A stretch of DNA of 33,311 nucleotides from Podochytrium sp. JEL0797 (lineage: Eukaryota; Chytridiomycota; Chytridiomycetes; Chytridiales; Chytriomycetaceae), in assembly GCA_027596195.1 (NCBI GenBank), contig JADGJG010000185.1, forward strand, positions 1-33,311, given 5' to 3'. Positions 5,150 through 28,196 of this stretch are shown here, piece after piece. A program made the position numbers and the translations under genes. The notes under the pieces were generated by a model. That model was not told the origin of the DNA. It ran no database searches and saw only the letters and a list, made by a program, of their open reading frames with translations. How positions within the stretch are numbered: the stretch's first letter is position 1; each line of letters opens with the position of its first letter.

Positions 5150-5280
5150 GTGATGTTCGACTGATTGGAATTTTGATGGATTTTCTGAAAATCTTTCCTT
5201 TTCAATCACTTTATTACGCATGCAAACAAAAAATACACATAAATACACACATATACACACACAAACACAAACAAGAATAA
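5149..5280. promoter_or_regulatory. Short intergenic region between the tandem oxidases, with CA-rich tract
   Basis: Only 131 bp separate the stop of the upstream oxidase (5281) from the start codon of the downstream one (5149). The 3' end of the first and the promoter of the second must fit here. It carries a CA-rich tract (about 5234-5272, degenerate ACAC/ATAC units) and an AT-rich stretch. No TATA box can be named with confidence. Confidence 0.4.
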
Positions 5281-7411
5281 TCATGCATGACACGACCCCC
5301 ACCAATCTTTCGGAATCTTTTTTTCCACGCTCGCGATCCCATCATAATTCGCAAACGTGAGCACCAACCCCGTCATCATATGCCATTCTATATGACAATG
5401 AAAAATCCAAGCTCCCGGGTGATCAAAGTTGATGAGAATGTCCACGTATCCCGGAACGCACCCCGTTTCCCCCGTTCCTCCTTGTCCGCCCGAACACTTG
5501 GGGACCTGCACAGCGTCGCGACGCGGGTACGTGGATAGGGTCGAGGAGGAGTCTCTGTGTAAAAGTTTTCCTACTCCAATCACGTAAAACGCGTGGCTGG
5601 AGGGTGTGTCCTAATCAGCAAAACGCAAATGTTGAGCAGAGTGGGCTATCGTACCCGTGCAAATGAAACGTGTGTTCGATATTGTCTGTATTTCGAATTT
5701 GCAGGAACGTCCAGCCGTTCTTGACAGGGACCACATTGAGGGAAGACGGAAGCGTGTGGTTCAGCAACATGCTCTGCAATGTCGGCACTTTTGGAATCAG
5801 ATACTGGCTCCCCAGAAAGTTGGTCTCGTCACTCAAGACGGTGACAGTGGAGATGGACATGTTCGTGATTGGGTCGTAAATGATTGTGAACGAGCTGATT
5901 GTGATGATCAGCAAACCCTACCACAAGAGGAAAAACTTTGAATTGAGGGTCCACTCACAAATAAATATACACATCGTAGTTCGGGAGAGTACTGGCAGTC
6001 AATCCATTCAGTTCTCCAAGCGTGTAAACATTCAGCGGCATCTTGGGGTTCCAAGACACTGCCAGAGGGTCCCCCGATTTGGCGCCGTTGTATCTCAAAA
6101 CGGCCGTGACATTGAAGTTGACTCCGTTCGTGATTTCGGTTCCGGTTGGAGTGTACATGTCCATGATGGTGGCCCGAATCCAGTAGTTGTCGATTGGGGC
6201 AGTTGCGTGAAGAATTACGGAATCTTTACAAAATTTGCGCTTTAGAATCCGAGTCACCCATTAGAATATATAAGCTCTTACATCTCTGTGAGCTTCCAAT
6301 TGGAAACGAGTCCGTAACTGTTGGGTTCGTATATTGGCCGTCCTGTTCAATTACAGTCATGTTGTGGCCGTCGATGCTGAAGGTAAACGCGGCTTCAGCA
6401 CTCATGTTGATGATGCGAAGGCGATAGCGTTTTCCTTTGGAAACGGTGATGTTGGCTAGTGGATGGTCGGGTGTGCACTTCAGAGACGTTGCCGAGCAAT
6501 TGAATCTCCCGGCACCATTGATCAAGCCAGATTCAGGTACAGGGTCAAACGCGTCTGAGTGGAAAACGGGAGGGAAATGAAGTCAGAAAACTCAAAATTC
6601 ATGAATGCGTGTCAGCCATGATATTCCTCACACAAATATTCGGAAAGAACAGTCAATGCGCTCTTGTGGTGATGATCCGAGAGAGTGACAATGATTTCTT
6701 CGTCGTATTCTTTTGCATAGGGGTCTTTCGGGTCGTGAACAATGAAGGGTCCGCGCATTCCGTCCACTGCAAAATCGGGTATATTCAGCTGCCGCAAAAA
6801 CGTAGGTACGCAATCTTACCATACTGTGAAGCATAATGCGCGTGCCACCAAAACGTCCCAGCCTGGTTTCCAGTGCTAAATCGATATGTCAAAGACTTGC
6901 CCTTTGGAATCGGACACTGGGTGACCATGGCCGGCCCATCCATCCACGGAGTTTCCTCCTGAAACAGCCCATGCCAATGAAGCGACGAGGACACGTTCAT
7001 GTGATTGTTGACTGTGACAACCACGAAATCACCCTTGTTCACGTGAATCGCGTAATCCAGCACGTTGTTGGCGACCATCATCAGTTTCGGGACTCCATCG
7101 AGATTCAATACTTTTTGAGTCAGATTGAGGGTGAAAGTTTTGGTGGGGGTGGCCGCACAAGCCGTCTTTGTGGGTGAAGCTTTGTGTTTGGTTTGGAGGC
7201 TGACTTTTGAGGTGGGACTTGTGAAAGACTGTCGGGTTGCCAATTCCATGTTGTGGCCAAAAATCGCGTGTCTGGTTTCTGTTGTCGTTGTAGTTGCAGA
7301 GTATGGGATGGGAAGTGGGGTGGTGGCAGAATTCTTGGCAATTGCGGTAGTGGAAGTAGAAATGGAGGCGGAGGCGACAGCCAACAGGAAGAATACAGAG
7401 CAGCAGCGCAT
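5281..7411 (-). CDS. Secreted multicopper oxidase (laccase/ferroxidase-like), upstream copy
   Basis: Six exons: 7411-6820, 6766-6632, 6554-6282, 6223-5959, 5894-5655, 5596-5281; introns of 53, 77, 58, 64 and 58 nt; product 606 aa. A signal peptide (MRCCSVFFLLAVASASIS) and a Ser/Thr linker of about 65 residues precede the first cupredoxin domain. All copper motifs are intact: HWHG, WWHAHYASQY, HLHGHAFYV (rebuilt across the last intron) and HCHIEWHMMTGL, with Leu at the T1 axial site. Junctions were fixed by matching the neighbour: GKRYRLRIINMSA is shared word for word. It ends soon after the last domain (KDWWGSCHA) and lacks the neighbour's tail. The pair clearly arose by tandem duplication, but only the intron before AFDPVP is common to both. 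Confidence 0.92.
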
Positions 7412-13585: not shown

Positions 13586-14485
13586 TCATACAGTTTGTTT
13601 TTGCCCCAAATTGCTCCACTGGGTGTTGAGGTGGCCTGACCATGGACTCACGCCCTTGCAACTGCCTCGGTCTGAGAACTTGACCGCATCGATCCAGGTA
13701 TTGCAGTTCTGGCAAAATATTTGAACTCTCTGTACTCTCTGGATCGGCCGGGTGAGGAAATGACGGTGTACCTTTGGCGTGCAGCAGAACTCAACGCCGC
13801 GTTCGTACTTTGCCGAAAAGTCGACCCAATCCTTGGACGCGACTTGGCTGAAGTCCACATGGGCCTCCATAAACGCACGCAGCGAGGCAAAATTATCATC
13901 CTCATCCCATTCATTGGCCCACTTGAGAATCACTTGGAGTTTGACGGTCGAATCCGATGCGGCCCCGAATTCTGACAACAACTTGCCAAGAATGACTTCA
14001 TCCATAAAGCGGCAGCTGAACTCCTCGGATTCAATTGCGGTCAGTCAGTTCTTCTTGAACCAAGCCGTGCAAGCCGAGAGGAGGTTTTCGTCCTGCAAGA
14101 ATTGCGCGTTGACTGCGAGGGGAACGAATGAGTTTTGAACAATCGTGCCGTGGGCAAACTCTGGTATGTTGGCGTAAATGCATTCAAGGTTGAAGCGGAA
14201 GTGGGCTGGATGTGGCGCGTTGACTCTTATGGGCATATCAAGTGGCCTGTCCTGGACCTCGACAAAGCTCAGATGAGCGGCAAAGTACGGGTTCCTGAGG
14301 AGGTAAGCGCTGTGGGCGGCGATAATCTCGCCAGAGCTCGGTTGTAGAAGGATATCAGCGTTTCCAGCGTCTCCGATCAATTCGGCGGCTTCCGGACCAG
14401 TGAGCAAGGGTTCCAAAGGTGGGCTCATGCAGAGTGAAAATTGAATGGTGACTTGACGAATGTTGGATGTGGCGTTGGAACGCAT
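13586..14485 (-). pseudogene. BTB-BACK protein gene, copy A, interrupted by an in-frame TGA
   Basis: Reading minus from 14485, the frame aligns with the intact copy at 19800-20702 over the whole length. It has a BTB/POZ half (DILLQPSSGEIIAAHSAYLL, then NPYFAAHLSF), a BACK-like helical half (KLQVILKWANEWDEDDN) and the Cys module (IFCQNCNTW...C). A TGA at 14045-14047 replaces Trp144 of the intact copy; the frame continues without shift for 153 more codons to a normal stop at 13586. TGA is a genuine stop in neighbours such as DnaJ and the second oxidase, so this is a nonsense mutation, a read-through site, or a stop removed by splicing: a 45-nt in-frame GT...AG segment with a CTGAC branch-like site spans it. 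Similarity extends upstream of the ATG (SSAPTATSQPS), so the true start may be earlier. Confidence 0.72.
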
Positions 14486-14652
14486 TGATGGCTGACTGGT
14501 GGCGGTGGGGGCCGATGAACGATTCTTAAGTGTCGTCTTCGGACGAAACTCTGACTCACCGATGAATGTTGAATAAGTTGTTCATTTTTTTCCATTTGTT
14601 CTTATTGATCTCAAAACGAAGGAAGGTTGTATCAATTAATCAATCAATACAT

Positions 14653-15105
14653 TTACATCTGGCAAAAATGCGCGATGACGGCCAGGGGAACGAATGAGTT
14701 TTGCGCAATCTTGTCGACGGCGAACTCTGGCGTGTTGGCGTAAATGCATTCGAGGTTGACGCGGAAGTGGGCGGGGTATGGCCGGTTGATTTTCATGGGC
14801 ATTTCGAGAGACTTGTGTTGACCCTCGGCAAAGCTCAGGTGAGCAGTAAAGTAGGGGTTTCTGAGGAGGTAGGAGCTGTGGACGGCGATGATCTCTCCAG
14901 GGCTCGGTTGCAGAAGAATGTCAGTGTTGGAGGTGTCTCCGATCAATTCGGCAGCCTCAGGACCAGTGAGAAAGGGCTCCAATGATGGTTTCATGCAGAG
15001 TGAAAATTGCATGGAGGCGACGTTGGAGCCCGTGGCTGGTTGGCTGGTGGCGGTGGGGAGTTCGGTTTTTGTTTTGATTTCTGCGCCACCCACCTGCCTC
15101 CTCAT
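14653..15105 (-). pseudogene. BTB protein gene, copy B, truncated after the BTB domain
   Basis: Starts at the ATG at 15105 (MRRQVGGAEIKTKTELPTAT) and gives 150 aa. It is very close to copy A through the BTB/POZ region (FLTGPEAAELIGD, DILLQPSPGEIIAVHSSYLL, NLECIYANTPEF). Similarity stops abruptly at AVIAHFCQM, where copy A goes on as AVNAQFLQDENLL; a TAA follows at once and the BACK half and Cys module are missing. It could act as a BTB-only protein, but the sharp break inside a conserved helix looks like a 3' truncation, perhaps from the event that created the A/B tandem. The downstream 150 bp are AT-rich and show no missing exon. Confidence 0.68.
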
Positions 15106-15415
15106 CGCGGTTTTCTTTGGATAATTAAAATACTGAACAGATAGCCTTCGTGAAGAGGAACGTGTTTCTTTCAAACCCTCTTTACAACGCTTTGTGATGG
15201 ATTGCCAAATTCCAAAACCTCTAACGCCTGCTCGCCGCCTCCGATAACAGCGACTCCTATCATCCCCCCTTGGGCAAGTGCGTTGGTTTTTTTTTTGCCA
15301 GCGTGGATGAACTGTGGTCTGTGTGGATGATACACGGCATGTGTTGTTCGCGCGTGAGGAATGGTTTGTTTTGATTTCAAATTCTCTTCTGTCGGATTCG
15401 AAAAATATGTTAAAA
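15106..15415. other. Intergenic stretch with a doubtful short open frame
   Basis: The 310 bp between copy B and the TMEM17 gene hold no clear gene. On the minus strand a frame ending at 15171 reads ALAQGGMIGVAVIGGGEQAL, which has protein-like composition, but it has no ATG except an internal one and no convincing upstream exon. I do not call it as a gene. Confidence 0.25.
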
Positions 15416-16311
15416 TTATGCAGCCCGACTGACAACCTCATTCCACTCCCTATCCGCCTGCTCCGCCTCCAATATCCCTTCATCACTGCTCTCACTGCCC
15501 AAAGTGAGAAAGAACGAAGCAGCCTGGCTCTTGATGATGGTTTGCGCACTCACATAGCCAAAATATACTTCAGGAATCAACAAAATGCAATATGCGCTGT
15601 TGAGGGCGACTTCGAATGGGACAATGAATCCCCATCCCAGTTTGTTTTGCCAGCCCATATAATAGAAGCAGGTAAACATTTGAGGAAAGATGGTGAAGAG
15701 AAAACTTCCCGCGAGATCGGGAACCTGGTTTGTTGGGTGTTTGGCAATTTCGAATTTCGCGTTTCGACAAGATAACTCACGCGTTCTTTGAGATTGCCGC
15801 AATAGCCCAGCCACAATCGCAGTGGCTCTATAATGATGAAGAATATGTAAAAGATGGTCATCAGGAGCGTGTGGAAAGTTGTCGGACTGAAGTACAAAAG
15901 CTGTCAAAATTGAAAACAGCGATCAGAGCGAGCGAGCTTCGAAGAGGGGATCGAAGAAGTGGCCCACCTTCCATCGAATTATTATAAACTGTCCAATCGC
16001 CCAGATAGGAAACAACAGGATGTTGAAGAAAAGGAGCAGCTGAAAATGATGGTTCGACGAAATCTCGTATCCTGAATTCGTTGTCTGTCAATAACAAGCT
16101 TGCTGAATTCATTCGCGTTTTGCATCATACCAATCGCGCCTCGGTTGTTGATGGTGGCCAGGTGATACGGCACTATCATTTTTTTGGGGTTCTTGTACCC
16201 GGGGAAGACGCGTTCCGCGACTGATGAGTTGAAAGCTTCCAATTGACTCATGGACTGGAGATGCGGTTGCTGCTTCGGAGTCTGTAAGAGATTGGCGGCG
16301 TTCCTTTCCAT
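15416..16311 (-). CDS. TMEM17-family ciliary transition-zone membrane protein
   Basis: Four exons: 16311-16131, 16071-15968, 15900-15781, 15724-15416; introns of 59, 67 and 56 nt; product 237 aa. After a soluble N-terminus of about 60 residues there are four predicted membrane helices: QLLLFFNILLFPIWAIGQFI, TLLMTIFYIFFIIIEPLRLW, SFLFTIFPQMFTCFYYMGW and FEVALNSAYCILLIPEVYFG. The signature after helix 2 (EPLRLWLGYCGNLKERVPDLAGSF) matches TMEM17/TMEM216-type proteins. In animals and protists these sit in the MKS complex of the transition zone and gate entry to the cilium. Non-flagellated fungi lack a cilium, so its presence points to a zoospore. The C-terminal 35 residues are acidic (ESSDEGILEAEQADREW). 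It shares a 50-bp promoter with BCP1. Confidence 0.85.
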
Positions 16312-16361
16312 TTTTTGACAGGTCTTTTTTTTTTTTTTTTGCAAAATCGATTTCGAAAAAC
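16312..16361. promoter_or_regulatory. 50-bp divergent promoter between TMEM17-like gene and BCP1
   Basis: The two start codons are again exactly 50 bp apart. The stretch contains a long T run and TTTCGAAAAA (16351-16360), the same short palindromic core as in the TMA7/DnaJ promoter. Confidence 0.55.
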
Positions 16362-17449
16362 ATGTCCAGCAAACGCGCCGAGACCAAAGCAGAGGCCATC
16401 GCCCGCAAAGACGAGGAAGACCAGGAAGATGAAATGGACCACGATGACGACAATGAAGACGACAAGGAGGACGGCGAAGAGGTACAAAAACCCATGTCGT
16501 GTTTCACCCCACCTTGCCCACTCACGCAATTCAATACAACCCCAAAGGAATTAATCGACGTTGACTTTGACTTCTTTGACCCCAAAGAAATCGACTTCCA
16601 CGGCCTCAAGTCGCTCATCAAGCAAACCGTGGCCAACGACGCGGAGCAGTTCGACATCTCGGGACTCGCGGATCTGATCATTGCGCGTCCGCATTTGGGA
16701 AGCGTCGTCAAAGTCGATGATTCGACGGACCCTTACGCTGTCATGACGGTGTTGAGTCTTATTCCGGATTCCAAAACGGTGCGTTCGTATTCTTTTCACG
16801 ATGAAAAAACACGTGCTAACGTTTTCGTCCCGGGCCATCAGAAAAAGCTTCCTGCTCCCATTACCACCATCAAGGAATACATTCTCGCCAAGTCGGCCAA
16901 ATCCAACAAGGAGCACCACACGGGTTTCCAAATCTTGTTGAACACGAAAGCGTGTGGCCTTCTGGTGAATGAACGTCTCATCAACATGCCCCCGCAAATT
17001 GTCGTACCGATGCTCAAGATGTTGGATGAAGAGCTGGACTGGAGTGTGGAGGAGAAAAAGGAGAAGGAATTCGAGTACCTCTGCTACATTTCCAAAACGT
17101 ACCAGGAAGTGGAGCCGCTGACGGAGGAGGACGCAGACAATGAAGGACCCAGCAGAAAGAAGAAGAAGAAGGGAGCCAATAGCAAGATTGTGTTGAATTT
17201 CCAGGTCGAGGACGAGGTGTTCGAGAAGGTGGGTCAAATCGCATTGTTGATTGTCAACCCGGCTTCTCATCACACCATACGACACACAAACAGCATGCGG
17301 AATATCACTTTGACTTTCAATTCACGAACCAAACAGACCATTCGGAGCTGCAACAAACGGCAGGAATCAAAACAAGCCGTCGTCTGTACTTGATCAAGCG
17401 AAGCAATCTGAAGGCTGTTCACAACGATATGAAGGAGCTTTTGAATTGA
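16362..17449 (+). CDS. BCP1: BCP1/BCCIP family nuclear protein
   Basis: Exons 16362-16481, 16548-16778, 16842-17228 and 17294-17449 give 297 aa, close to yeast Bcp1. The first two introns (66 and 63 nt) are stop-free and in frame; the second carries a clear CTAAC branch site. The protein has an acidic Asp/Glu-rich start, then [18 protein letters not shown], the hallmark of the family, followed by the conserved fold ([21 protein letters not shown]) and a basic KKKKKG insert. The final exon adds [19 protein letters not shown]. Yeast Bcp1 is a chaperone for ribosomal protein Rpl23 and aids nuclear export; animal BCCIP binds BRCA2 and p21. Ribosome-assembly work is the likelier role here. Divergent partner of the TMEM17 gene. 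Confidence 0.9.
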
Positions 17450-18677
17450 TTCTTTCCTTGTTCCCAAAGTGAAGTAAATAGTTTTTTCCTGCTGTTCGTT
17501 TCAAAAGCCCTCGGTGGGTGTCGCGAAAAGTCAAAACAAAACCCGAAGCTCCCAGCAATAGATTCCAATTCCCCTCTCTATCAATGCACAATTTTTGTAA
17601 GACGAAATCGCTTTCAAGTCGTCTCTCTGGGAGAATTTTACTTGCAACTCGCGCTCTCACACATAAAAATAGTTTAAAAATTCTTTTTCCTCTACGCAGA
17701 TGCAGCATGAGGTGGAGAGTAGATTCCTTTAGAGTGTTGTAGTCAGACAGCCTGCGGCCATCCTCGAGCTGCTTTCCAGCAAAAATGAGATGCTGCTGGT
17801 CCGGTGGGATGCATCAACGTAGTATGTGAGAAATGAAAGTGAGGAGGAGAGACAGGAGTCTCGGATGCACGGTGGAAGAGCTGGGTGCTCGAAAACTTTT
17901 CATTTCTTTTTATTCTTTCTTTTGTTCACCACTTGCGCTTACTCGCTCATCCCTCAAGATTCCCTCGTACCCTTAATCTTGGCGTTCACATTATTAATGG
18001 TATCGGATCGGGACTCCTGTGCCAAGCAACGCCTTCTCTCCACCGCAATCGTCTGCACCCCCCGAACCGCTTCTCTTTGGTCGAATTGCCAAGGAATTAG
18101 AAAGCACTATAATAAGTTGGCAGTTCACCCCGTCTCCGCAATTTGTTCCACCAGCACAGCTCTCGACCCAGAATATGCGTGATTGCGTTTATCGGACGCG
18201 TCAGCCCCCCCCCCCCCCCTCCGCCCGCCTCGCCCCTTGAAACGAAAAACGCTTTTCTAGCACTTTTCAACAACTTCTCCTTCTCAAATCAATATCTAAA
18301 TTCTTAATGAAACCCCTTGATGGTGATCGACAGCTGGACGCAGACGATATGATGTGCCGAGTGCACTGACCACGAGCACATCCTCATGAGAGCCAAGCCA
18401 TTCCCGAAAGCTGACGAAAACCGTCTGCATTTTTCAATATAAATTCCAAAATTCCTGCAGTTGCATATACTATTCATCAACTTTTGGGAGGGAAAAATCA
18501 TTAGTAGCAAACCCCGGGAGCACATTGTGAACGCCCACAGTATCGCCACTGAGCCTTGCGCATGTCTGGAGATTGCCATGCAATGCATGATCACAATCGT
18601 GAACCGGGAAAAAATTCTCGTTACTTGCATTTCTTCGCGTCATAAAAATGAGTTACGCTTATATTTTAGGGGTTCAT
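17450..18677. other. 1.2-kb region without a supported gene
   Basis: Between two converging genes. Several short frames exist but none has a convincing start, family match or splice pattern. The most protein-like is a plus-strand stretch ending near 18180 (EPLLFGRIAKELESTIISW), which could be an exon of something unrecognised. A C15 homopolymer lies at 18205-18219. I see no tRNA-like fold or T-loop consensus. Confidence 0.4.
18205..18219. repeat. C15 homopolymer
   Basis: An uninterrupted run of 15 C within otherwise mixed intergenic sequence. Length may be uncertain for technical reasons. Confidence 0.7.
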
Positions 18678-19562
18678 TCATTCCTCAACCTCCGCCAAAA
18701 ACGCGCTCGAACTCAGTGCAATCCAAGCAGTCCCCGACTGCCCACCCAGCTCCACCAACCCTGCCTCCTTCGCCATCCGCGTCAAATCCTTGAACCCAGC
18801 ACACCCCCCACGTTTGTAAATCAACGGGTTGCGCTCGAGCACCTTGCTTCCAACGTCACTGCGACGCGGTTGCTCATTCCCCAAGCGATAGAGCTCCTTC
18901 AACGTGTCAATCAAAGGCTCAAAAAACTCGAGTTCATTGGTCGATTGAGAAACGAGATGCATGGCCTCGAGATTCGATGCGAGACCTGCAGCCATATCGA
19001 CCGGAACCAAAGGCGGACTCATTGCAGGACTTACTGCGTCCACCCCGGCTTTCGCGTTTCCGTCTACTCCTTTCGAACCACCCTCCAACACATCAAGCTT
19101 CCAGTCCAACACGACACTCGCTTGCGCACGCATCACAGACGTGGCTTTTTGCATGGGTTCGATCAAAACAATGAAATAATTCCTGTTGCGCAGCACGCTT
19201 AATGCACTGCAGAAGTCCTTATCTCCAGAGATGAGGACGATCGTAGCAGGGGCTGGATTGTCGATGGCAAAGGTGAGCATGTCGACCATGAGTTTGGCAT
19301 CTGCCATGTCTTTGCGGTTGTCGTGCGGACAGTGGATCAGCGAGACGCCCGAGCGGCTCAGATGGATGCGCTTCTCCTCGGCACAGGTCATGATGTCGAG
19401 GTAAGCATTGAAGCAAATCATTGCGCCGAAGGACGAGAGGACCACGTTGCGGATACGGTCCACGACGTCGTATCCTTTGGCGAGACGTGGCACTTGGCAG
19501 TTTTCGTAGTCCCAGAAGACGCCGACTTTGGTAGCGTGGGGAAGCGGTTTGGGGGTGTCCAT
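18678..19562 (-). CDS. NYN-domain putative RNase with C-terminal LOTUS/OST-HTH-like domain
   Basis: Single exon, 294 aa from the ATG at 19562 (MDTPKPLPHATKVGVFWDYE); an upstream in-frame ATG at 19679 would add 39 residues of poor quality. The NYN domain (PIN-like fold, residues about 10-165) has the expected acidic cluster: WDYEN (Asp18), ADAKLMVD (Asp88, Asp94) and ISGDKDF (Asp113, Asp116), which in this family hold Mg2+ for RNA cleavage. After a Pro/Ala/Val linker, residues about 220-290 (EPLIDTLKEL, GSKVLERNPLIYKRGG, FKDLTRMAKEAGLVEL) look like a LOTUS/OST-HTH winged helix that binds RNA. The pairing resembles animal MARF1/limkain b1 in miniature. Role in RNA decay or silencing is inferred. 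Confidence 0.82.
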   Translation of the reverse strand: MDTPKPLPHATKVGVFWDYENCQVPRLAKGYDVVDRIRNVVLSSFGAMICFNAYLDIMTCAEEKRIHLSRSGVSLIHCPHDNRKDMADAKLMVDMLTFAIDNPAPATIVLISGDKDFCSALSVLRNRNYFIVLIEPMQKATSVMRAQASVVLDWKLDVLEGGSKGVDGNAKAGVDAVSPAMSPPLVPVDMAAGLASNLEAMHLVSQSTNELEFFEPLIDTLKELYRLGNEQPRRSDVGSKVLERNPLIYKRGGCAGFKDLTRMAKEAGLVELGGQSGTAWIALSSSAFLAEVEE

Positions 19563-19799
19563 TCGTGGTGGTTGATGGGCGAGTGTGGGAAAAATCTTTT
19601 TTTGGAATCCATCACGTGTGAGATCCCTGGGGGAGGGGTGAGAGGAGATTGAAGGAGATTTCCTTGTTCGGAGAATCATTAATGAAACGCGCAATGAGCT
19701 TTTCTTTTTTGAGAAGCCATAGAGAAAAAGAGAAAAGGGGGGTGATCAACACATCCAACAAGCAAAACTGCACCACCAGAAGCTCACAACGTTTCCAAC

Positions 19800-20702
19800 T
19801 CATTCAACCTTCTTTTTCTGCGCATACACGGTATAATGCTGGCCCATTGGTTCGTAAGTGCGATTCTTTGGACACGAATTCGCCACCCAAAACTTGTCAC
19901 AATCAATGAACTGATGGCAAAAGTGGCACTTGATTTGAACCATCTGGTTCCCAATTGGAGGCGAGACAGGATTCTTTGCAAAATACACATGCGTTCTGGG
20001 CGCCACGCAGAAATCCACACCATGATCAAACTGCTGGCTCAACTCGACCCAATCCTGCGACGCCACGTTCTTGAAATCCACCAGCGACTCCACAAACTGA
20101 CGCAACTGCGCGCAATCGTCATCCTCTCTCCACTCGTTCGCCCACTTGAGAATCACATGGAGTTTCGTTTTGGCGTCCAACACGGGGTCTTTGAATTCCG
20201 CCAACAGCTTCGCGAGCGTCGGTTGGTCAATGTGGCGGCAATTAAATTCAGGGTGTTGGATCGCCGTGGTCCAGTTTTGGGAGAACCACGCAGCGCAAGA
20301 GGTCATGAGGTTTTTTTCTTGGAAAAACTGCGCGTTCGCGAGCAAAGGCATGAAACTCTGGCCAAAGACTCTTCCCTCGCAATATTCAGGAGTGTTGGCG
20401 TAGATGCAGTTGAGGACGAAACGGAATTCGGAAGGGTGAGGTGGATCGATTTTGAATGGGTTCGAGAGGGAGTTGTTTTGGCCCGTCAAGAGTTCGCGGT
20501 GGGATGCAAAGTAGGGGTTTCTGAAGAGGTATGGGCTGTGGGCGTACACGAACTCGCCGGTTTTGACCTGCAGGACCACGTCGGAGGATTCGGCGTCACC
20601 GATCAAGTCAACAGCCGCTTGACCCGAAAGCAGGGGCTCAGTGGGAGGGTTTTTGGAGGATTGGCATTCTTGAGAGGCGGTCTGTTTGGTGTCGGTTCCC
20701 AT
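19800..20702 (-). CDS. BTB-BACK protein with C-terminal Cys module, intact copy C
   Basis: Single exon, 300 aa. Residues about 22-140 form a BTB/POZ domain (DVVLQVKTGEFVYAHSPYLF, then RNPYFASH, FVLNCIYANTPEY). Residues 140-235 are BACK-like helices with KLHVILKWANEW. The end carries Cys259-x2-Cys262-x14-Cys277 (KCHFCHQF...FWVANSC), which could bind a metal with one further ligand, followed by a basic tail. BTB-BACK proteins often bridge substrates to CUL3 ubiquitin ligases; no Kelch or MATH substrate domain is seen, so that role is only a possibility. It is the full-length paralog of the damaged copies 5-6 kb away, and differs from them more than they differ from each other. Confidence 0.82.
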   Translation of the reverse strand: MGTDTKQTASQECQSSKNPPTEPLLSGQAAVDLIGDAESSDVVLQVKTGEFVYAHSPYLFRNPYFASHRELLTGQNNSLSNPFKIDPPHPSEFRFVLNCIYANTPEYCEGRVFGQSFMPLLANAQFFQEKNLMTSCAAWFSQNWTTAIQHPEFNCRHIDQPTLAKLLAEFKDPVLDAKTKLHVILKWANEWREDDDCAQLRQFVESLVDFKNVASQDWVELSQQFDHGVDFCVAPRTHVYFAKNPVSPPIGNQMVQIKCHFCHQFIDCDKFWVANSCPKNRTYEPMGQHYTVYAQKKKVE

Positions 20703-21098
20703 GGTGTCGGTGGTGTTTGGTGTGGGTGGAGTGTAGGTGGCTTTGATTGTTTTGATGGTGAAAAAAATGGCTGCGCGAAAACAAAATCTTTTCTTCTCCT
20801 TTTCGAGACAATTAATTTTTGGGATGTAAAGATCGAGTTGCTCAACTGATGCATTTCACAAATTGGCCATCGAATGCATTTTAACACCTGAACACAGTCA
20901 ATATCGAAAGTCTTCTTGCAATCGAGTCTCAGCTCTCAAATCAAATTAATGAAGGATCAAGGAAGGGGGCAAAGGGTGCGTCACCCTTTCTGATTGGACG
21001 CCCAGTGAGACACCCTTATTTTCAAATTTTTCCATTTCAATGAATTGATTAAATCTCCCACGCGGAATTGACGAAATTGAAAAAAAAGGTTTCGCCGA
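20703..21098. promoter_or_regulatory. Divergent intergenic region, BTB copy C and chitinase
   Basis: 396 bp between two divergent start codons. It is AT-rich near both genes, with an A run just before the chitinase ATG. It must contain both promoters, but I recognise no specific element, RNA gene or repeat. Confidence 0.4.
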
Positions 21099-22852
21099 AT
21101 GACCACTTCCCCAGCAACGGAAGCGCCCCTTGTTGCCGACTCCAAGGCCGCCGACACCGCCGCCGCCTGGCCCGCCAAGCGCAACAAGCTCGTGGCCATT
21201 GGCGCCGCCGCCGTCGTGCTCATCGTGGCCGCTTCCCTCGTGGGATACTTTGTGGCCAAGAACCACACGTCCACGGGCGGTTCTGCGAGTCCCATGGCAA
21301 CCAACGCAGTCGCGGCGAACGGGACTGGCAGTCTGGATCCCGGGGCTGGCAATGCATCCGTTGTTGCGACCCACAAGCTTTGGGGTTATTATGGGGCGGA
21401 CGCGACAGGTATGCTGTGCTCTCTCGCAGTGCTTGTCATTCCCAGTGATCTAATCCACCGCGTGTATTGCAGACAACGGCGTCGACATTGTCAAAGGCAC
21501 CTTGCCCCCCGTCAACAACCCTCTGCTGTTCCAAAAGGAGCTGCGCTACTACTGCGACACGAAAAACTTTGACTCCATCAACCTCGCCTTCTTGAACCTG
21601 TTTGGACCGAATTCGGGTCCCGGGGGGTTCACCATCACGTTTGGGGGGTTCTCGAACGGTAGTTATGGCGGCACGTACACGTACAAGGGCGGTAAAGTTG
21701 AAACGAATGATCCTTACACTGTGAGTGCTGCCTTTTTCATTACCGAGTGTTCGTCAATGACCTGATTGCGAATCTCCCTTCACCCGAAACACAGGTGTCT
21801 GGACTCAAACTCATGGGCCAAGACATTCAATACTGTCAAAAGACGTATGGCATCAAAGTCATCATGTCTCTCGGCGGAGACAAGGTGTCCGATTACTCTT
21901 TCGGAGTCGGCGATGGTGCCCGATACGCTCAAATCTTCTACGACATGTTCCTCGAAGGGAATGGACCCGTGCGTCCGTTTGGTCCCGGCGTGATTCTCGA
22001 TGGCATTGAGCTTGACATTGAGAAAAACCCGGCCTACCCTGCTCCGAGTCCTTGGACGGGTGAGATGGTGACGCTCGTCAAGACGTTGAGACAGTTGAGC
22101 CCCAAAACGACGCTCGCGATGGTTCCGCAGTGTTACATCAATGATTTGAATTTCAAGGGCAAGGACCAGAATATTGGGGACGTGCTTCCGCAGGTTTCTG
22201 GCATTTTGGATTATCTGATTGTTCAGTATTACAACAACCGCAAGTGTCTCTTTATATTTATTTCATTTCGACGCGTGTGTCTGACCGACGTCTCTTTTTT
22301 TGACAACAGCAACGTGCTCGTACCCTTTTGCTTTCAATTTCAAAGATTGGACAAAAATCTTTCCCGGAACGATTGTCGTTGGGTTGGCTGGAGACTGGAC
22401 CTCGGCCATTTCAGGAGGATTCTTGGAAGCCGGACCCCTGCAGGCCGTGTACGACATGGTCAAAACCGACAAGCAGTTTGGTGGATTCTCAGTCTACGAT
22501 GTGTCTTCTTCCACAGCACCGTCGCACTATCACAACGCTGCGATCGTAGACAATTCGGGCCCTTTGACGGATTATTCCACCACGTTGCGAAACGTTTTGA
22601 ATGGTCAGGTCGTCGGGTCTGGATACCCTTCGCAGGATCAGTTGGGATCCACGACCGATAAGCAGTATGCTCAACGGTGTGGGGGCACTTGGGTGTACGC
22701 GAATGCGACGTGTTCTTTGAAGGTATGTTTGCGCGTGTCCAACAGCGCCACATTCTGAAACGAAATTTCCTTTTTCCAAACAGTCTTGCACGTCCAACTC
22801 TGATTGTGGTATCCATGAGCAATGCTTCATGTATTTGGCCACCAAGTGTTGA
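21099..22852 (+). CDS. Membrane-anchored GH18 chitinase, hevamine type
   Basis: Exons 21099-21408, 21473-21720, 21795-22239, 22310-22722 and 22784-22852 give 494 aa. A short cytosolic start is followed by one membrane helix (residues about 30-55, KLVAIGAAAVVLIVAASLVG), making a type II anchor. Then the GH18 barrel: WGYYGAD, VIMSLGGD and the catalytic DGIELDIE (about 255-262). This differs from the usual DGxDxDxE by Glu in place of the second acidic residue; the proton-donor Glu and its Asp partner are kept. VQYYNNPTCSY matches the substrate-site strand of class III enzymes. The last exon adds a Cys-rich end (SCTSNSDCGIHEQC). The third intron begins GC rather than GT. Likely acts on chitin at the cell surface or wall; target inferred. 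Confidence 0.9.
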
Positions 22853-23182
22853 GAACCCGCAAAGGACGCTTGTGAAACCCCCCACCCAACCTCATAAATT
22901 AGTTAGACAAAAATAAACGATTTGTATGAAGACTTTTGCGATTGATGGCCTCTAAGGAGAAGGACGGAAGGGTCCGCTTTGGAAAATGTGGATTCTGTGC
23001 CCAGTGACGTGATGGGTGAAAGCAACCGATACGCGGGCCCCGGCGGATCAGCCACTTGGTTGCGAGAACCTCCTCTTGCTAACCCCCCCAAGTCTCTGCC
23101 AAGTCCCTTGCATTACCAATTTGGCAGCCAGTCCACTTTTCTCCCATCGCGTTTCAATTAATCACGGAAATATGAGATTCTT
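22853..23182. other. Convergent intergenic region, chitinase/DUF202
   Basis: 330 bp holding the two 3' ends. An AATAAA-like signal lies about 60 bp after the chitinase stop (near 22913). No gene, repeat or RNA structure is evident; open frames here are too short and lack starts. Confidence 0.4.
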
Positions 23183-23731
23183 CTATTGGTTTGCATTCAC
23201 ATTAATGGTAGTATTCGCATTCTGCGCAATCCCAGCCTTGAACCAAGTTCCTTGCGGAACCAACACGACTGCCAATCCCGACACGGTGATCACAGAACTG
23301 CTCGCAACCATCAACGCAATCCCTTTCGTGTTGGGCTGGAACTTTCCCTGCGTCAAATGCTTCAGAGTCGAGAAATACCGCACGGTTCCGAACCCCAAGA
23401 ATAGGGCGCCAATGCCAATCAGAGTCGCGGAAGCAAGACGATCAGGAGATGAGACGGCATGGGCGGCGATTACGCCGAGGGAGGGGATGCGGTGTGGTTT
23501 TGTTTCAGTGGGTTGAGCGGCAACGGGTTGGGGAGCTGGGGGGAGTTGATGCAGGGACTGTGCTGTCTGTGCGGATCGCTGATATCCGAAAGTTTCGAGA
23601 GCGATCCCGAGGCCAACGAATCCGAGACCCGTGCGGGCCCAGGCGAGGAAGGTGCGCTCATTGGCGAGGTGGTCTCGTGCCGTGGAGCCTGTATTGGCGA
23701 GGATTTGAGTGCCAAAGAAGCGGGATCCCAT
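23183..23731 (-). CDS. DUF202 (YidH-like) membrane protein
   Basis: Single exon, 182 aa. The first third has the family signature: DHLANERTFLAWARTGLGFVGLGIALETFG, that is, an Asn-Glu-Arg-Thr-Phe-Leu-Ala-Trp motif leading into the first membrane helix. A Pro/Gln-rich loop follows, then helix 2 (LASATLIGIGALFLGFGTVRYF) and helix 3 (IALMVASSSVITVSGLAVVL). DUF202 proteins are found from bacteria to fungi; in fungi the domain occurs alone, as here, or in vacuolar transporter chaperone proteins, where it forms the membrane part. Function of the stand-alone form is not known. The loop between helices 1 and 2 is longer than in bacterial YidH. Confidence 0.85.
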   Translation of the reverse strand: MGSRFFGTQILANTGSTARDHLANERTFLAWARTGLGFVGLGIALETFGYQRSAQTAQSLHQLPPAPQPVAAQPTETKPHRIPSLGVIAAHAVSSPDRLASATLIGIGALFLGFGTVRYFSTLKHLTQGKFQPNTKGIALMVASSSVITVSGLAVVLVPQGTWFKAGIAQNANTTINVNANQ

Positions 23732-23915
23732 GGGTGCAGGATTGTTGTGGGATTATTGATGATTTTTTTCCTCGTGCGTCGATTCGCCCTGATTTCGCTG
23801 ATTCGCTGATAATATTTCAGGGCGATTTAACACCAACTCCAAGGAACGGTTATGGTTTATTTCAAGTCAGATCCTCGTATTCCCATGCAATGGAGCCAAC
23901 GAATCGAACCCTTTT

Positions 23916-24506
23916 CTACGACCTGATTTTGAGCAACACAGCAGCCAGCCGAGACTTTGCAACGGCCATATTCGCAGCCCCTGTTGCCATATGCCTTGCC
24001 AGCACTGCGTCTAGATACGACCCTCTCAATCTTCGGGCCACATAAGGGGTGAGGGCAGCTGTCACTCCGATACGCGCAGGCCATGTGACGTTGTGTGCCA
24101 GCCATGCGAGTGCGACAATCGTGTCCGTGCGTGGGTGGGTGGGACCCCGTTGTTGATCCAAATCAAGAAGCCTATTGATTGGTCAGCGACGACGAAAAAG
24201 CGATCATCCCACTCACTCGACAGCCCGCTTCACATCCCGCAACGCCTCCTCAGACCGGTCCAGGTGCTCCTGCACCCGTACTCGCCCCTTCACAATCGCT
24301 CCCTCCACGTCCCGCACAACGTCCTTGGCAATCCGCACAAACTCGGCAATGCCGTCCGTCTCGGGAGGTGTTGCCGTGGTGCTCAAGGTGCCGTACACTC
24401 CCGCACAGCACAGTGAGAACGAGGTTGCTGATACTGCAGAGTATGTGAGCAGGGCTGCGGGGCCCTGCTGCTTGATGCTGAAGGTGGGCCGCAGGCGGGC
24501 AAACAT
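23916..24506 (-). CDS. DUF1279/FAM210-like protein, probably mitochondrial
   Basis: Two exons, 24506-24217 and 24171-23916, with a 45-nt intron in phase 2; 181 aa. A basic start (MFARLRPTFSIKQQGPAALL) suits a mitochondrial presequence. The first hydrophobic stretch is YSAVSATSFSLCCAGVYGTL. After a charged helix of about 55 residues comes LAWLAHNVTWPARIGVTAAL followed by TPYVARRLRG, which fits the DUF1279 pattern of an alanine-rich helix, Pro-x-Arg, then a Thr-Pro pair before the end of the membrane segment. FAM210 proteins are inner-membrane factors linked to mitochondrial protein synthesis in animals; that role is not shown here. The inserted helix is longer than usual. Confidence 0.72.
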
Positions 24507-24542
24507 GGTCCGTTTTTGGAAATACAACAAAAATGAGATTAT

Positions 24543-24691
24543 ATTTCCATCTCCACGGTTCTTTGATCAGGGGTTTTTAAGGGAGGGAGGATGTGATGAA
24601 TAGCAAGTAAGCGGATCTCGCCGGTGCATCCCACAATAGCAGAAAATAAAAGAGAAAATCTCCGAGCCAGCTTCCATACCAAGAGACGGAT
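24543..24691. repeat. 149-bp direct repeat, copy 1
   Basis: Matches 26559-26707 in the same orientation over 149 bp with seven substitutions and no gaps that I can find (about 95% identity). It begins ATTTCCATCTCCACGGTTCT and ends at GAGACGGAT. Copy 1 lies in the divergent interval between the FAM210-like gene and the methyltransferase. No coding frame runs through both copies and I see no terminal inverted repeats, so its origin (segmental duplication, solo LTR or other element) is open. Confidence 0.85.
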
Positions 24692-24810
24692 CCGACGACA
24701 GAGCATCTACACACCCAAAAAATGTATAATTATTAGATAGGACAACGAGAAGAAGTCGAAAATTGATGGTTTCTTTTTTCTTTTGACGGCAGCTGCGACT
24801 TGAAAAAAAA

Positions 24811-25401
24811 ATGTTCGAAACCGACCAGGGACTCACCCCTGACACTGACCACCTCTTGGCGCTCTTCCCAAACGATGAACTCCCCGAGGACAACAACTTC
24901 CCCCGCTGGATGCCCGATGATGGTATATATGGACCTTCCATTCCCACATCACTCGAACGTGTGCAGATGGCTCTCAAAATGGCTGACTGCAAACCCGGTG
25001 ACCATGTCCTCGATTTGGGATGCGGCGATGGTCGCTTCTGCGTGGCCGCTTTGACGCTGTTTGGCGCCACATCCGCTGCTGGAATCGATTGCGACGAAGG
25101 GATGGTTTTGAAAGCCAACGAGCTCGCAAAAGGAATGTTGTTACGGGAGAAAATTTCGTATCACCACGGGGACATTCGAGACGAAGCGGTGCAAGCGGTT
25201 GTAAGGGATCTCAAGGTTTCTGTGCTGGTAGCGTTTTTGACGCCCGAGTTTTCTTGCGATTTCAAGGACATGTTGGTGGATGCTTTTCAGAGGGGTGTGC
25301 GGATAGTGGCTGTTTCGTTTGATTTGGCTAATATCAAGGAGTTGACTTTGTCAAAAGGGTCGAGTAAGGATGGGATTTGGGTTTATCAGAAAAAATGCTA
25401 A
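24811..25401 (+). CDS. Class I SAM-dependent methyltransferase
   Basis: Single exon, 196 aa, ATG at 24811. Before the catalytic domain is PSIPTSLERVQMALKMADCK, a helix that in this family leads into motif I. Motif I is HVLDLGCGDGRF (residues about 68-79), the glycine-rich SAM-binding loop. Motif II ends with the acidic ribose ligand in AAGIDCDEGMV. A GDIRDE stretch corresponds to the adenine-contacting region, and VLVAFLTPEFS takes the place of motif IV. The layout, Asp/Pro-rich start and lack of extra domains recall small protein-lysine methyltransferases of the FAM173/ATPSCKMT type, but the acceptor cannot be fixed. It lies between the first 149-bp repeat and the first cassette protein gene. 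Confidence 0.85.
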   Translation: MFETDQGLTPDTDHLLALFPNDELPEDNNFPRWMPDDGIYGPSIPTSLERVQMALKMADCKPGDHVLDLGCGDGRFCVAALTLFGATSAAGIDCDEGMVLKANELAKGMLLREKISYHHGDIRDEAVQAVVRDLKVSVLVAFLTPEFSCDFKDMLVDAFQRGVRIVAVSFDLANIKELTLSKGSSKDGIWVYQKKC

Positions 25402-25477
25402 AATATAACTCCGACTTCGAAGACTTTGATCTGAAGCTGCAATCTGATTGGCACGAATGTTTCAAGAGATAATCTCT

Positions 25478-25528
25478 TTGTTCGACTGTCGCTGACTTTG
25501 CGGCCGTCTTTGTTCCTCAAAACCAAAC
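25478..25528 (+). repeat. Duplicated leader of the first cassette gene
   Basis: The bases before the ATG (GTTCGACTGTCG, then GACTTTGCGGCCGTC, then TTTGTTCCTCAAAAC) recur before the paralog at 27354-27413, where about 10 bp are inserted. Similarity continues into the first 25 codons. This is probably a shared promoter and 5' UTR. Confidence 0.7.
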
Positions 25529-26488
25529 ATGGATAAACCTACTTCGAGTGATTCCAAGGGAGCTTCTTCCACAGCTGTCACTGCCGGCACACCCTCGGCG
25601 ACCAGCGCGCCCTTTCCAGCTCAACACACTTCTTTTACTGCCGCCGCTCCCACGGAGACCAAAAGCGCGAGTCTCACCCCAGAGGCCACATCTTTAACTC
25701 CGGCCAGAAACAAGAAAGAGTTTGTCGAGGAGGAAGATTCCTCCTTTAATATGGCGTCCATTTTCGCCGCGATCTCAGCTGAACAAGGCAAACGTTCCAG
25801 AAAGCCCTCCTCCTCTCCTAAAGAAGAGACTGTCGCGAACACGCCCACCACCTCCAAAAACACGCCTGCAAAGAAGGATGAACCAAAAATCCCATCGCCC
25901 CCTTCAACCGGTTCGAACCCACCGCCAACACCAGAGAAGATGGCTCAACAGATAAAAGACACGGAAGAGCATCGCAGGACCCAGTTTGAGGCACTACGTC
26001 GCATTCAGATGGCTCGGTTTGAAGCAGAGCGGGAGCGTGAGGCTAGCAGGGGAGCCCAGGCCAACCTTTCCACCTCCTCTATGTCCCAAGAACAGACATT
26101 ACGAAGAAATTTGGCAGTTGCCCAGCGAGACCATCGCGCGGAGGTGCGCGAATTGCGAGAGAATTTGGAAGTCGCCCAGCGAGACCATCGCGCAGAGGTG
26201 CGCCAATTGCGAGAGAATTTGGAAGTCGCCCAGCGAGACCATCGCGCGGAAGTCCGCCAGTTCAACCAAGAGCATCTGACGGAGGTGGGGCAGTTGCGCC
26301 AGCAGATGATTAAGTTCAGGTGTAAATTTTGCAAGGTGTTTTTATTTCCACTTGAATTTCAACTTGAGTGTGACTTCAACCGCACGCCTGCGCAGAACGA
26401 AAGGGAGTGGAGACAAGGCAAGCATGACACTGATTTTTTTTCAAGCGAGGATATCCTATTTCCGGATGGGCTCACAGGAAATCATTGA
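25529..26488 (+). CDS. Cassette protein 1: Ser/Thr-rich, coiled coil, C-terminal Cys module
   Basis: Single exon, 319 aa. Residues 1-165 are disordered, rich in Ser, Thr, Pro and Ala (SSDSKGASSTAVTAGTPSAT). Residues about 130-260 are a charged coiled coil containing three perfect-length 18-residue repeats around AQRDHRAEVRQLRENLEV. The end holds Cys265-x2-Cys268-x12-Cys281 (FRCKFCKVFL...FQLEC) and then DILFPDGL. It is paralogous to the 27414-28196 product: the start (SSDSK...SSTA.TA), ARNKKE, the Cys module and the ILFP/ITFP end all correspond. I know no named family for it. The Cys pattern matches the one at the end of the BTB-BACK proteins, suggesting a common partner or metal; this is inference. 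Confidence 0.7.
   Translation: MDKPTSSDSKGASSTAVTAGTPSATSAPFPAQHTSFTAAAPTETKSASLTPEATSLTPARNKKEFVEEEDSSFNMASIFAAISAEQGKRSRKPSSSPKEETVANTPTTSKNTPAKKDEPKIPSPPSTGSNPPPTPEKMAQQIKDTEEHRRTQFEALRRIQMARFEAEREREASRGAQANLSTSSMSQEQTLRRNLAVAQRDHRAEVRELRENLEVAQRDHRAEVRQLRENLEVAQRDHRAEVRQFNQEHLTEVGQLRQQMIKFRCKFCKVFLFPLEFQLECDFNRTPAQNEREWRQGKHDTDFFSSEDILFPDGLTGNH
26099..26260 (+). repeat. Three 54-bp tandem units in the coiled coil
   Basis: Units 26099-26152, 26153-26206 and 26207-26260 encode 18-residue blocks of the form LRENLEVAQRDHRAEVRQ. Units 2 and 3 differ at only a few bases, so the expansion is recent; unit 1 is a little more diverged. Confidence 0.88.
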
Positions 26489-26558
26489 TGTTCCCTTTTC
26501 CTCTACTGTAAAAAAATGTGTGTGAATGCGCGAAAGGCCATCACCACAATGTATGAGG

Positions 26559-26707
26559 ATTTCCATCTCCACGGTTCTTTGATCAAGGGTTTTTAAGGGA
26601 GGGAGTATGTGATGAATAGCAAGCAAGCGGATCTCGCCGGTGCATCCTACAATAGCAGAAAATAAAAGAGAAAATCTCCGATCCATATTCCATACCAAGA
26701 GACGGAT
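26559..26707. repeat. 149-bp direct repeat, copy 2
   Basis: Second copy of the repeat at 24543-24691, 2.0 kb away in the same orientation, starting 70 bp after the stop of cassette protein 1. Its right end abuts the start of the orphan ORF at 26711, so the repeat boundary coincides with a gene boundary. Confidence 0.85.
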
Positions 26708-26710
26708 GCC

Positions 26711-27352
26711 GTGTTTCGCGTGTTAGTCGAGGATGCGAGAGTTTGGCCCGATTTGAAAGAGTATTTGGCGCATTCGGACAAGAGACTGGCGTTTGCGATG
26801 TGGGCGGTCGATCAGAACCTTGCGACAGTAGTGCGTGAGTTGAGATATGCACTGGGTGACGCGCCTCAGGCAGTCTTGTCGAGTCATCTGAACAAAAAGT
26901 TGGAGGAGGTCATTGACGATGACGAGGCTGTCAAGAAGCTCCTGCCTCTGCTCTCCACTCCTGAATTCAAGCAGGCGGGGAAGAACTTCTCGAAGAAAAG
27001 GAGAAGTTGTATTGTGGAGTTTGCCTTCGAGTACGAGCTAAATCGTGTGAAGGAGATGCAAGAATGGTGTGCCTCCTCGGGAGGGGTGCTGGGAGACGAA
27101 TTTGCGACGCTGTTTGAAGACAAAGGTGTGAAAGTTGTGCAACTTCAGAAGCAGTTCTCGGTTTTGGAAGTGGGGGACCTGTTGATTTGGGCATTGGATG
27201 AGGAGCTGACGACCGTGGTCAAGTTTTTGCAAAGCTGGAGAGATAAATTTTTAAAGAGAATTTATCAATCCCTCCAAAAGCCTCCAGTTGGTCAGTTTAT
27301 TTATAAAGATAATCCGATAGGCTCATCACTAGGAGAGAGATTATTTTTTTGA
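26711..27352 (+). CDS. Orphan ORF of about 213 residues, probably 5'-truncated
   Basis: The frame is open from the edge of the 149-bp repeat to a TGA at 27350 but begins with a GTG; the first ATG is codon 30 (26798). Sequence of coding quality is present from the first codon (RVLVEDARVWPDLKEYLAHS), so the real start was probably lost at the repeat junction or lies in an unseen exon. It is helical and charged. Two segments echo each other: MWAVDQNLATVVRELRYAL near the start and IWALDEELTTVVKFLQSW near residue 180, suggesting an internally duplicated helical unit. I recognise no family, signal or membrane segment. It occupies the same slot, between repeat and leader, that the methyltransferase fills in the first cassette, but the two are unrelated. 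Confidence 0.5.
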   Translation: MFRVLVEDARVWPDLKEYLAHSDKRLAFAMWAVDQNLATVVRELRYALGDAPQAVLSSHLNKKLEEVIDDDEAVKKLLPLLSTPEFKQAGKNFSKKRRSCIVEFAFEYELNRVKEMQEWCASSGGVLGDEFATLFEDKGVKVVQLQKQFSVLEVGDLLIWALDEELTTVVKFLQSWRDKFLKRIYQSLQKPPVGQFIYKDNPIGSSLGERLFF

Positions 27353-27353
27353 T

Positions 27354-27413
27354 TGTTCGACTGTCGCCGACTTTGCGGCCGTCCGCAACCCCTTTGTTCC
27401 TCAAAACAAAAGA
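27354..27413 (+). repeat. Duplicated leader of the second cassette gene
   Basis: Counterpart of 25478-25528, with an insertion (CGCAACCCC) between GCGGCCGTC and TTTGTTCCTC. It directly precedes the ATG at 27414. Confidence 0.68.
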
Positions 27414-28196
27414 ATGAAGAAATCGCGCTCGAGTGATTCCAAGGAAACTTCATCCACAGCCGCTACTGCCGCTGCACCCACGGCAACCAGTGCGCCCTCT
27501 CCAGCTGAAAGCGCGGCGTCTTCTTCCACGTCTGCCACTGCCACCGCGCGCGCGGCGAATGACTCCCCGTCAAAAAACACGCGTTCGCAAAAGCCGATGG
27601 TGCCTCCCACTCCCCCAGAGAGCCCTTCCATTGCGGAAGACAAGAGGACCAGAGCGAGCTCTTCCACTTCCCAACAGAAAGATGCGACCGCGCCTCGCAC
27701 CCCAACGCCCACCCTACAAAAGAAAGCTGCAAAAAACTCTGATAAATCCTACGCCGCAAGAAACAAGAAGGAGCTTATCGCGAACAAGTCTTCCTCATCC
27801 TCAAGTCTGGCGTCCAGTTCCCCTGCGGTGATCGACGCTTCCTCCTCAGCTGAAAAAGGCAAGCATTCCAAGACGTCCTCTTCCACTCCTAATGAAGAGT
27901 ATGACGTGACCGGTTCTACAAGCAGTAGTGGGGATTCAAAAGACGTGAATGAGTTGTCGAATGACCTCCGAAACATGAAATTGCGTTTGGAAGAAGCCGA
28001 GAAAAAGAATGCTGAGTACGAAGCGAAGATTATTCTGTTCCTGTGTGACTTCTGCAAACAGAATGTGCGCCAAGATGATTTTGACAAAAATCATCTGTGC
28101 GGTAGAGGAACGAAAAAACACGACGTGCCAATTCGTTTCGTCGACATCCCTGAAATCACATTTCCGAGCTGGTTGAATAAAAAAGAAAATGAATAA
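27414..28196 (+). CDS. Cassette protein 2: Ser/Thr-rich with C-terminal Cys module
   Basis: Single exon, 260 aa. Residues 1-175 are very Ser/Thr/Ala/Pro-rich (SSDSKETSSTAATAAAPTAT) with basic patches. A short coiled coil (LSNDLRNMKLRLEEAEKKN, about 180-205) leads into Cys211-x2-Cys214-x14-Cys229 (FLCDFCKQN...FDKNHLC) and the end PEITFPSWL. It is paralogous to cassette protein 1 but lacks the 18-residue repeats and has a longer disordered part. The stop is only 20 bp from the start codon of the CD225 gene on the same strand. Unknown function; nuclear or signalling scaffold roles would fit the composition but nothing in the sequence proves them. Confidence 0.68.
   Translation: MKKSRSSDSKETSSTAATAAAPTATSAPSPAESAASSSTSATATARAANDSPSKNTRSQKPMVPPTPPESPSIAEDKRTRASSSTSQQKDATAPRTPTPTLQKKAAKNSDKSYAARNKKELIANKSSSSSSLASSSPAVIDASSSAEKGKHSKTSSSTPNEEYDVTGSTSSSGDSKDVNELSNDLRNMKLRLEEAEKKNAEYEAKIILFLCDFCKQNVRQDDFDKNHLCGRGTKKHDVPIRFVDIPEITFPSWLNKKENE

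Follow-up and report, generated by a model that had tools for sequence, protein, structure and literature searches.

Introduction

Adaptor proteins built of a BTB domain and a BACK region usually bear, in addition, large target-binding parts (e.g., Kelch or MATH domains), and the fingers of BTB-zinc-finger transcription factors are of the C2H2 type. Among other small zinc modules, the second finger of the SBP box has a zinc-ligand His at position +7 (positions being counted here from the first Cys), and the UBZ4-type C2HC finger follows the pattern C-x2-C-x11-H-x3-C. Here, we describe a BTB-BACK family of the chytrid Podochytrium sp. JEL0797 (Chytriomycetaceae) with a small Cys tail at the C-terminus, together with two neighboring genes (encoding cassette proteins 1 and 2) that end in a similar tail. 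The window, i.e., the whole stretch of DNA analyzed, is the entire contig C96 (33,311 bases), and genome searches covered an assembly of 24.4 Mb in 995 contigs.

Compared with the Cullin-3 BTB-BACK adaptors SPOP, KLHL11 and KEAP1, the BTB proteins of this family have no Kelch or MATH part and carry a Cys tail of ~45 residues instead; their BACK part is only partly covered by structural matches, and the likeness is, as far as models tell, one of fold resemblance. Compared with the BTB-zinc-finger factors BCL6, Kaiso, HKR3 and PLZF, they have a helical BACK-like part between the BTB domain and the tail.

Results

The Cys tail is firmly identified as a recurrent feature of a single BTB family. 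Its intact representative in the window, BTB copy C (19800..20702, minus strand; 300 amino acids), combines a BTB domain (PF00651), BACK-like helices and a Cys tail (19800..19940, minus strand) with C259, C262, C277 and H289 (codon of the first Cys at 19928, third Cys at +18). With copy C as a query, 23 matches were found in its own genome, of which two weak ones (C567, 21.3 bits; C612, 17.1 bits) were dropped as other BTB genes and four were merged with neighboring rows of the same copy, leaving 17 family places (six on contig C195, three on C96, two each on C332 and C131, and one each on C26, C541, C285 and C101). The three-Cys tail is present at 10 of these 17 places, namely in copies A and C of C96, in three copies on C195 and in one each on C332, C131, C541, C285 and C101, while the sequence read at the other seven contains no tail. 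An additional tail fragment adjoins the C541 copy, and several family copies contain in-frame stops. A profile search of 5.77 billion proteins yielded nine relatives, eight from Podochytrium (copy C included) and one from Siphonaria sp. JEL0065 (P0009), the latter having the tail followed by a hydrophobic C-terminus; a tblastn search of plasmids with copy C gave no match.

Ten BTB tails were compared, nine from this genome (the divergent C101 tail being left out) and that of Siphonaria. All ten have a hydrophobic residue at -2, Cys at 0 and +3, Ile, Val or Tyr at +7, Phe or Leu at +12 and a Cys at +18 or +19. A His stands 6–12 residues after the third Cys in every one of them, against an expected chance of 0.305 per tail (from the His frequency in the tails), the ten cases not being independent of each other since the tails are related. 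This constant His makes a zinc site of three Cys and one His (C3H) likely in the BTB tail. The sequence-only reading of this DNA had suggested a small zinc-binding module, and this part of it has gained ground: the module is conserved in the BTB family, its residues suggest that it probably binds zinc, and the His after the third Cys provides a plausible fourth ligand. Pairwise identity among six tail-bearing copies is 56.5% in the BTB domain, 44.6% in the BACK part, 9.4% in a short linker, 27.9% in the tail core and 20.3% in the last part of the tail; because of this fall from BTB to tail, the C-terminus is, on sequence comparison, the fast-changing part of the protein around fixed Cys residues.

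Searches of Pfam with whole proteins gave no match above cut-off for the tail. Twelve tails searched separately gave weak matches only (best for DZR, E 0.0038 in one of the 12), and four tails submitted on their own gave one weak match. A tail profile run against 177,635 PDB sequences gave seven matches, four of which are SBP proteins (SPL4, E 0.0075), and a single 68-residue tail ORF (open reading frame) reached an SBP match at E 0.016. The resemblance to the second SBP finger comprises C-x2-C, the Phe at +12, and a third Cys and a His-Asn pair at similar spacing. Unlike in SBP, position +7 is occupied by Ile, Val or Tyr in 10/10 BTB tails, and the SBP box (PF03110) has no match at E up to 10 in the Podochytrium genome; with the ligand at +7 missing and no SBP match in the genome, the tail was not filed under SBP. 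The hydrophobic residues at +7 and +12 are shared with UBZ4 (zf_UBZ weakly matches one of 12 tails, E 0.032), in contrast to which none of 13 tails has a His at +15, and the last two presumed ligands are here Cys and then His. We assign the tail to none of the SBP, UBZ and C2H2 fingers.

The other carriers of such a tail are located ~5 to 7.5 kb from copy C, the nearest gene of the BTB family. Cassette protein 1 (25529..26488, plus strand; 319 amino acids) consists of a Ser/Thr-rich part, three internal repeats at a spacing of 54 nt or 18 residues (26098-26262, plus strand) and a Cys tail (26309..26488, plus strand; first Cys codon at 26321, third Cys at +16). Cassette protein 2 (27414..28196, plus strand; 260 amino acids) has a Ser/Thr-rich part, a predicted long helix and a Cys tail (28032..28196, plus strand; first Cys codon at 28044, third Cys at +18, His 7 later). 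Their units share, in the same order and 1.9–2.0 kb apart, 149 nt at 95% identity (24543..24691, the start of the duplicated unit, and 26559..26707, both plus strand) and 219 nt at 72% identity, the latter including a 31-nt upstream element at 97% identity (25478..25508, plus strand, for cassette 1 and 27353-27383 for cassette 2). The 149-nt repeat was found in only two places in the genome, both at this pair. By their sequences, the cassettes are tandem duplicates and, therefore, count as one case. Elsewhere in the genome no cassette relative was found (the sole other row for cassette 1 scores 14.7 bits, and the single other row for cassette 2 is cassette 1), and a PDB search with the cassette tails returned one match at E 1.1. 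Within unit 1, an ORF at 24811-25401 appears methyltransferase-like by eye; the corresponding place of the other unit, between the cassettes, is occupied by the ORF at 26711-27352, with matching flanking repeats and no relation between the two proteins.

The sequence-only reading had reported one common pattern at the ends of four ORFs, and all four quoted tails are indeed present, with C-x2-C and Phe at +12 in each and the third Cys at +18, +18, +16 and +18 (copies A and C, cassettes 1 and 2, respectively). The count of four nevertheless had to be revised, as copy A consists of two ORF pieces split by a TGA and the cassettes, being tandem duplicates, bring the number of independent cases to two at most. 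A PTATS-type N-terminal word, thought to be shared by BTB copies and cassette 2, carries no weight in copy A, where it precedes the first ATG of the open frame, and was rejected as evidence in cassette 2, where it sits within a Ser/Thr/Ala-rich stretch. Among 585 stop-to-stop ORFs with 100 or more residues, nine contain the strict motif C..C.{8}F.{3,5}C in their last 65 residues, while 300 shuffles averaged 0.23 such ORFs and never gave more than 2. This comparison overstates the case because the motif was picked after the tails were seen and the DNA set is enriched in BTB genes. The nine rows represent four BTB genes (five rows), the two cassette genes (three rows) and one unrelated ORF.

Profile-profile comparison revealed that the tails of the two families are alike beyond C-x2-C. 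Alignment of nine BTB tails with the two cassette tails by hhalign gave P 5.6e-5 (probability 66%), and none of 300 column shuffles keeping C-x2-C reached 1e-3 (best 0.0011). When the BTB tails were compared with 195 C-x2-C segments outside BTB-tail ORFs, cassette 2 ranked first and cassette 1 fourth. In the reciprocal test of the cassette tails against 258 C-x2-C segments, the copy C tail ranked first (P 3.3e-6, probability 88%), with one tail fragment and two further tails of BTB copies at ranks 2–4. With the whole families compared, the best local alignment runs from tail to tail. Pairwise scores are 39 for cassette 1 and copy C (p 0.0075), 47 for cassette 2 and the C285 copy (p 0.001) and 37 for the two cassettes, the scores quoted being the highest among 22 pairs, whose remaining p values range from 0.0075 to 0.95; with 37 against up to 39 and 47, the cassette tails resemble BTB tails at least as closely as they resemble each other. 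The cassette 2 tail fits the BTB-tail pattern fully (hydrophobic residue at -2, +7, +12, third Cys and His spacing). A model of the cassette 2 C-terminus, made from its own two-row alignment, contains a long helix, a strand, C-x2-C, a strand at +6 to +8 and a helix from +9, and these strand-strand-helix offsets equal those in the model of copy C (strands 255-259 and 265-267, helix 268-274, strand 290-294; predicted local distance difference test, pLDDT, of 46–68 per block of ten). Overall, a shared origin of the BTB and cassette tails appears somewhat probable to us.

Tail-less members illuminate the history of the BTB family. A tree calculated from the N-terminal 250 residues places the tail-less copies C332 at 837 and C195 at 3369 within a set of copies that have the tail, which suggests, on this sequence tree, that they lost it. 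Good support was obtained for 2 of 11 inner branches, including the one that defines the group with these two copies. P0004, an extra BTB relative that is encoded on a 4,139-base database contig and groups close to the C26 copy, has a C-terminus of another kind, without a Cys tail. Next to copy C in the window, copy A (13586..14485, minus strand) has the BTB-BACK-tail arrangement interrupted by one in-frame TGA (14045-14047, minus strand; frame split into 14045-14485 and 13586-14005). Its tail lies at 13586..13726 (minus strand; first Cys codon at 13714, third Cys at +18, His 9 later). The TGA makes copy A probably a pseudogene; the NCBI model P0008 bypasses it, apparently via predicted introns. 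Copy B (14653..15057, minus strand), 77.7% identical to copy A over 426 nt of DNA, is truncated to the BTB half alone, and no tail was seen in the sequence read. The C101 copy (C101:60975-61751, minus strand), clearly a BTB relative (60.8 bits), has a helix-like stretch and a Cys tail that stops directly behind its third Cys. It was considered as a bridge between the two families and set aside: the matches of its tail are weak (P 0.02 with BTB tails and 0.004 with cassette tails, rank 9 of 258 in the reciprocal test) and it is, for this reason, kept as a lead. A Cys-rich protein, zinc-ribbon-like by eye (ORF from base 238, plus strand, stretch L025), adjoins this copy. Two NCBI models join family members to other proteins: P0006, on a contig of 22,843 bases, links the BTB half of the C285 copy with an RNA-recognition (PF00076) protein, probably by model error or read-through, and P0007, on a contig of 16,109 bases, fuses a protein that looks multi-pass-membrane-like by eye to the C541 copy.

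The BTB domain itself is well supported, PF00651 matching residues 39-140 of copy C with 33.1 bits and the Siphonaria protein with 21.4 bits (Pfam cut-off, 20.5 bits). Pfam has no BACK match in copy C, and its sequence has no match in PDB. The AlphaFold2 model of copy C (mean pLDDT 77.5; at least 83 in all blocks of ten within 21-240 except three at 62, 75 and 78) places helices after the BTB domain up to residue 243, and a Foldseek alignment covers the BTB-BACK part of KLHL11. The BTB fold is modeled confidently, and its best structural matches include the Cullin-3 adaptors SPOP, KLHL11 and KEAP1. Cullin genes are present in the Podochytrium genome; a review reports Cul1, Cul3 and Cul4 groups for the fungi that it covers and makes no mention of chytrids (PMC2785787).

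Farther away in the window (3310-7152), two duplicated minus-strand genes, multicopper-oxidase-like by eye, share 70–77% DNA identity in three pieces.

Discussion

A number of observations weigh against kinship of the two tails and have to be set against the profile-profile results. The HMMER check did not bear out the expected link: a profile of 10 BTB tails run on 3219 ORFs gave cassette 2 an insignificant 6.7 bits (E 1.3), and cassette 1 is absent among the 46 matches listed (up to E 13); genome searches with the tail of either family miss the other. In the ranking of 195 segments, an unrelated Cys-rich protein scores as high as cassette 1; in the reciprocal test, P values down to 2e-4 occur among chance ORFs, and three of the 11 tail rows (which include one gene twice) fall to ranks 95, 124 and 127. 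Whole-family hhalign gives a probability of 10%. Cassette 1 is off-register, with its third Cys at +16 and the next His 18 residues later (vs. 6–12). The expected agreement of folds was found in part: strand-strand-helix recurs in both models, which are of low confidence in the tail (cassette 2, pLDDT 40–64 per block of ten); the cassette model has nothing equivalent to the final strand of copy C (290-294). Taken together with the frequent occurrence of C-x2-C and a hydrophobic +12, the HMMER result, the deviating spacing of cassette 1 and its unrelated equal would fit convergence, in which the BTB tail is a true C3H module and the cassette tail an independent small beta-beta-alpha zinc knuckle; so would a Foldseek search with the cassette model, in which 10 of 18 weak matches (best E 1.8) are named zinc finger, RING, PHD or UBZ. 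Against convergence stand the reciprocal best match, which is BTB copy C on the same contig, and the failure of all 300 shuffles to reach 1e-3 with C-x2-C kept; we regard it as a real possibility without calling it probable. Of the earlier notion of a mobile or recruited module, kinship is thus favored by the profile-profile tests and the two models, whereas mobility is not supported: the tail is found at the ends of BTB genes, none is shown at seven of the 17 family places, and the sole other carrier found is one tandem pair.

The cassette ORFs might also not be functional genes at all, their tails being remnants of duplicated BTB sequence or chance. A database search with the cassette 1 tail was empty, its own protein included (five candidates, none at E up to 10, itself not scored), broken BTB copies A and B lie in the same locality, and the N-terminal blocks show a near-neutral codon pattern, without third-position excess (28/94, 21/93, 26/93) and with a ratio of nonsynonymous to synonymous substitution rates of ~0.78 over 92 codons (a few counted twice). 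Owing to these last two values (a ratio of ~0.8), selection on the cassette ORFs is only weakly supported by sequence. Nevertheless, both frames are open over 319 and 260 codons with their aligned blocks in one frame, the conserved residues of the C-termini include C, C, F and KHD, and self-BLASTN at E 1e-6 lists no cassette-BTB DNA match; non-functionality seems quite improbable. A further alternative, the main functional one, concerns function alone: the BTB proteins may act like BTB-zinc-finger transcription factors, with the tail on DNA rather than on a ligase target. BCL6, Kaiso, HKR3 and PLZF match copy C about as well as the adaptors do, and, among solved sequences, the plant SBP DNA-binding finger mentioned above comes closest to the tail. 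The adaptor assignment is further weakened by structural matches (VIA list) that cover mainly copy C residues 21-182 and are, therefore, no test of the tail, and by low Foldseek TM-scores (0.22–0.36 by query, among the 50 matches listed). Against a DNA-binding role stand the modeled long helical region behind the BTB domain, as in BTB-BACK adaptors, the SBP match that lacks the SBP His ligand, and the fact that a single small finger is little for DNA reading; we consider such a role unlikely.

Our preferred explanation, held tentatively and just short of what we would call probable, is that a C3H tail belonging to a BTB-BACK family was passed to an ancestor of the cassette pair. In this view, a BTB-BACK family of Chytriomycetaceae that diverges fast would end in a small zinc module of the C3H type (C-x2-C-x14/15-C-x5-11-H), hydrophobic at +7 and +12. 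If SPOP and KLHL proteins are a guide, dimerization and Cullin-3 binding may fall to the BTB-BACK part, and the tail, occupying the position of the target-holding Kelch or MATH domains, may bind the target. The ancestor of the cassettes, a Ser/Thr-rich coiled-coil protein without a BTB domain, would have gained the tail from a BTB copy, probably an adjoining one, and its descendants may compete for the same target, which they would bind without recruiting the ligase, or may bring along a protein that partners the adaptors.

In its widest form, this explanation would make an undescribed C3H module, so far seen only in Chytriomycetaceae, a recognition tail common to two kinds of protein: BTB-BACK adaptors of the Cullin-3 type, encoded in arrays with rapid birth and death of genes, and BTB-less coiled-coil proteins that, having taken it from a neighboring adaptor, share the adaptors' targets as competitors or partners. 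This proposition is doubtful as a whole. In its expansion and its many broken copies, the BTB family is reminiscent of adaptor families that turn over fast; no account of BTB expansion in chytrids was found among open-licence full texts. If the explanation is true, a BTB family with a ~45-residue tail as its only extra part would represent a minimal adaptor, and the movement of this tail to a neighboring gene would show a route by which antagonists of a ligase arise.

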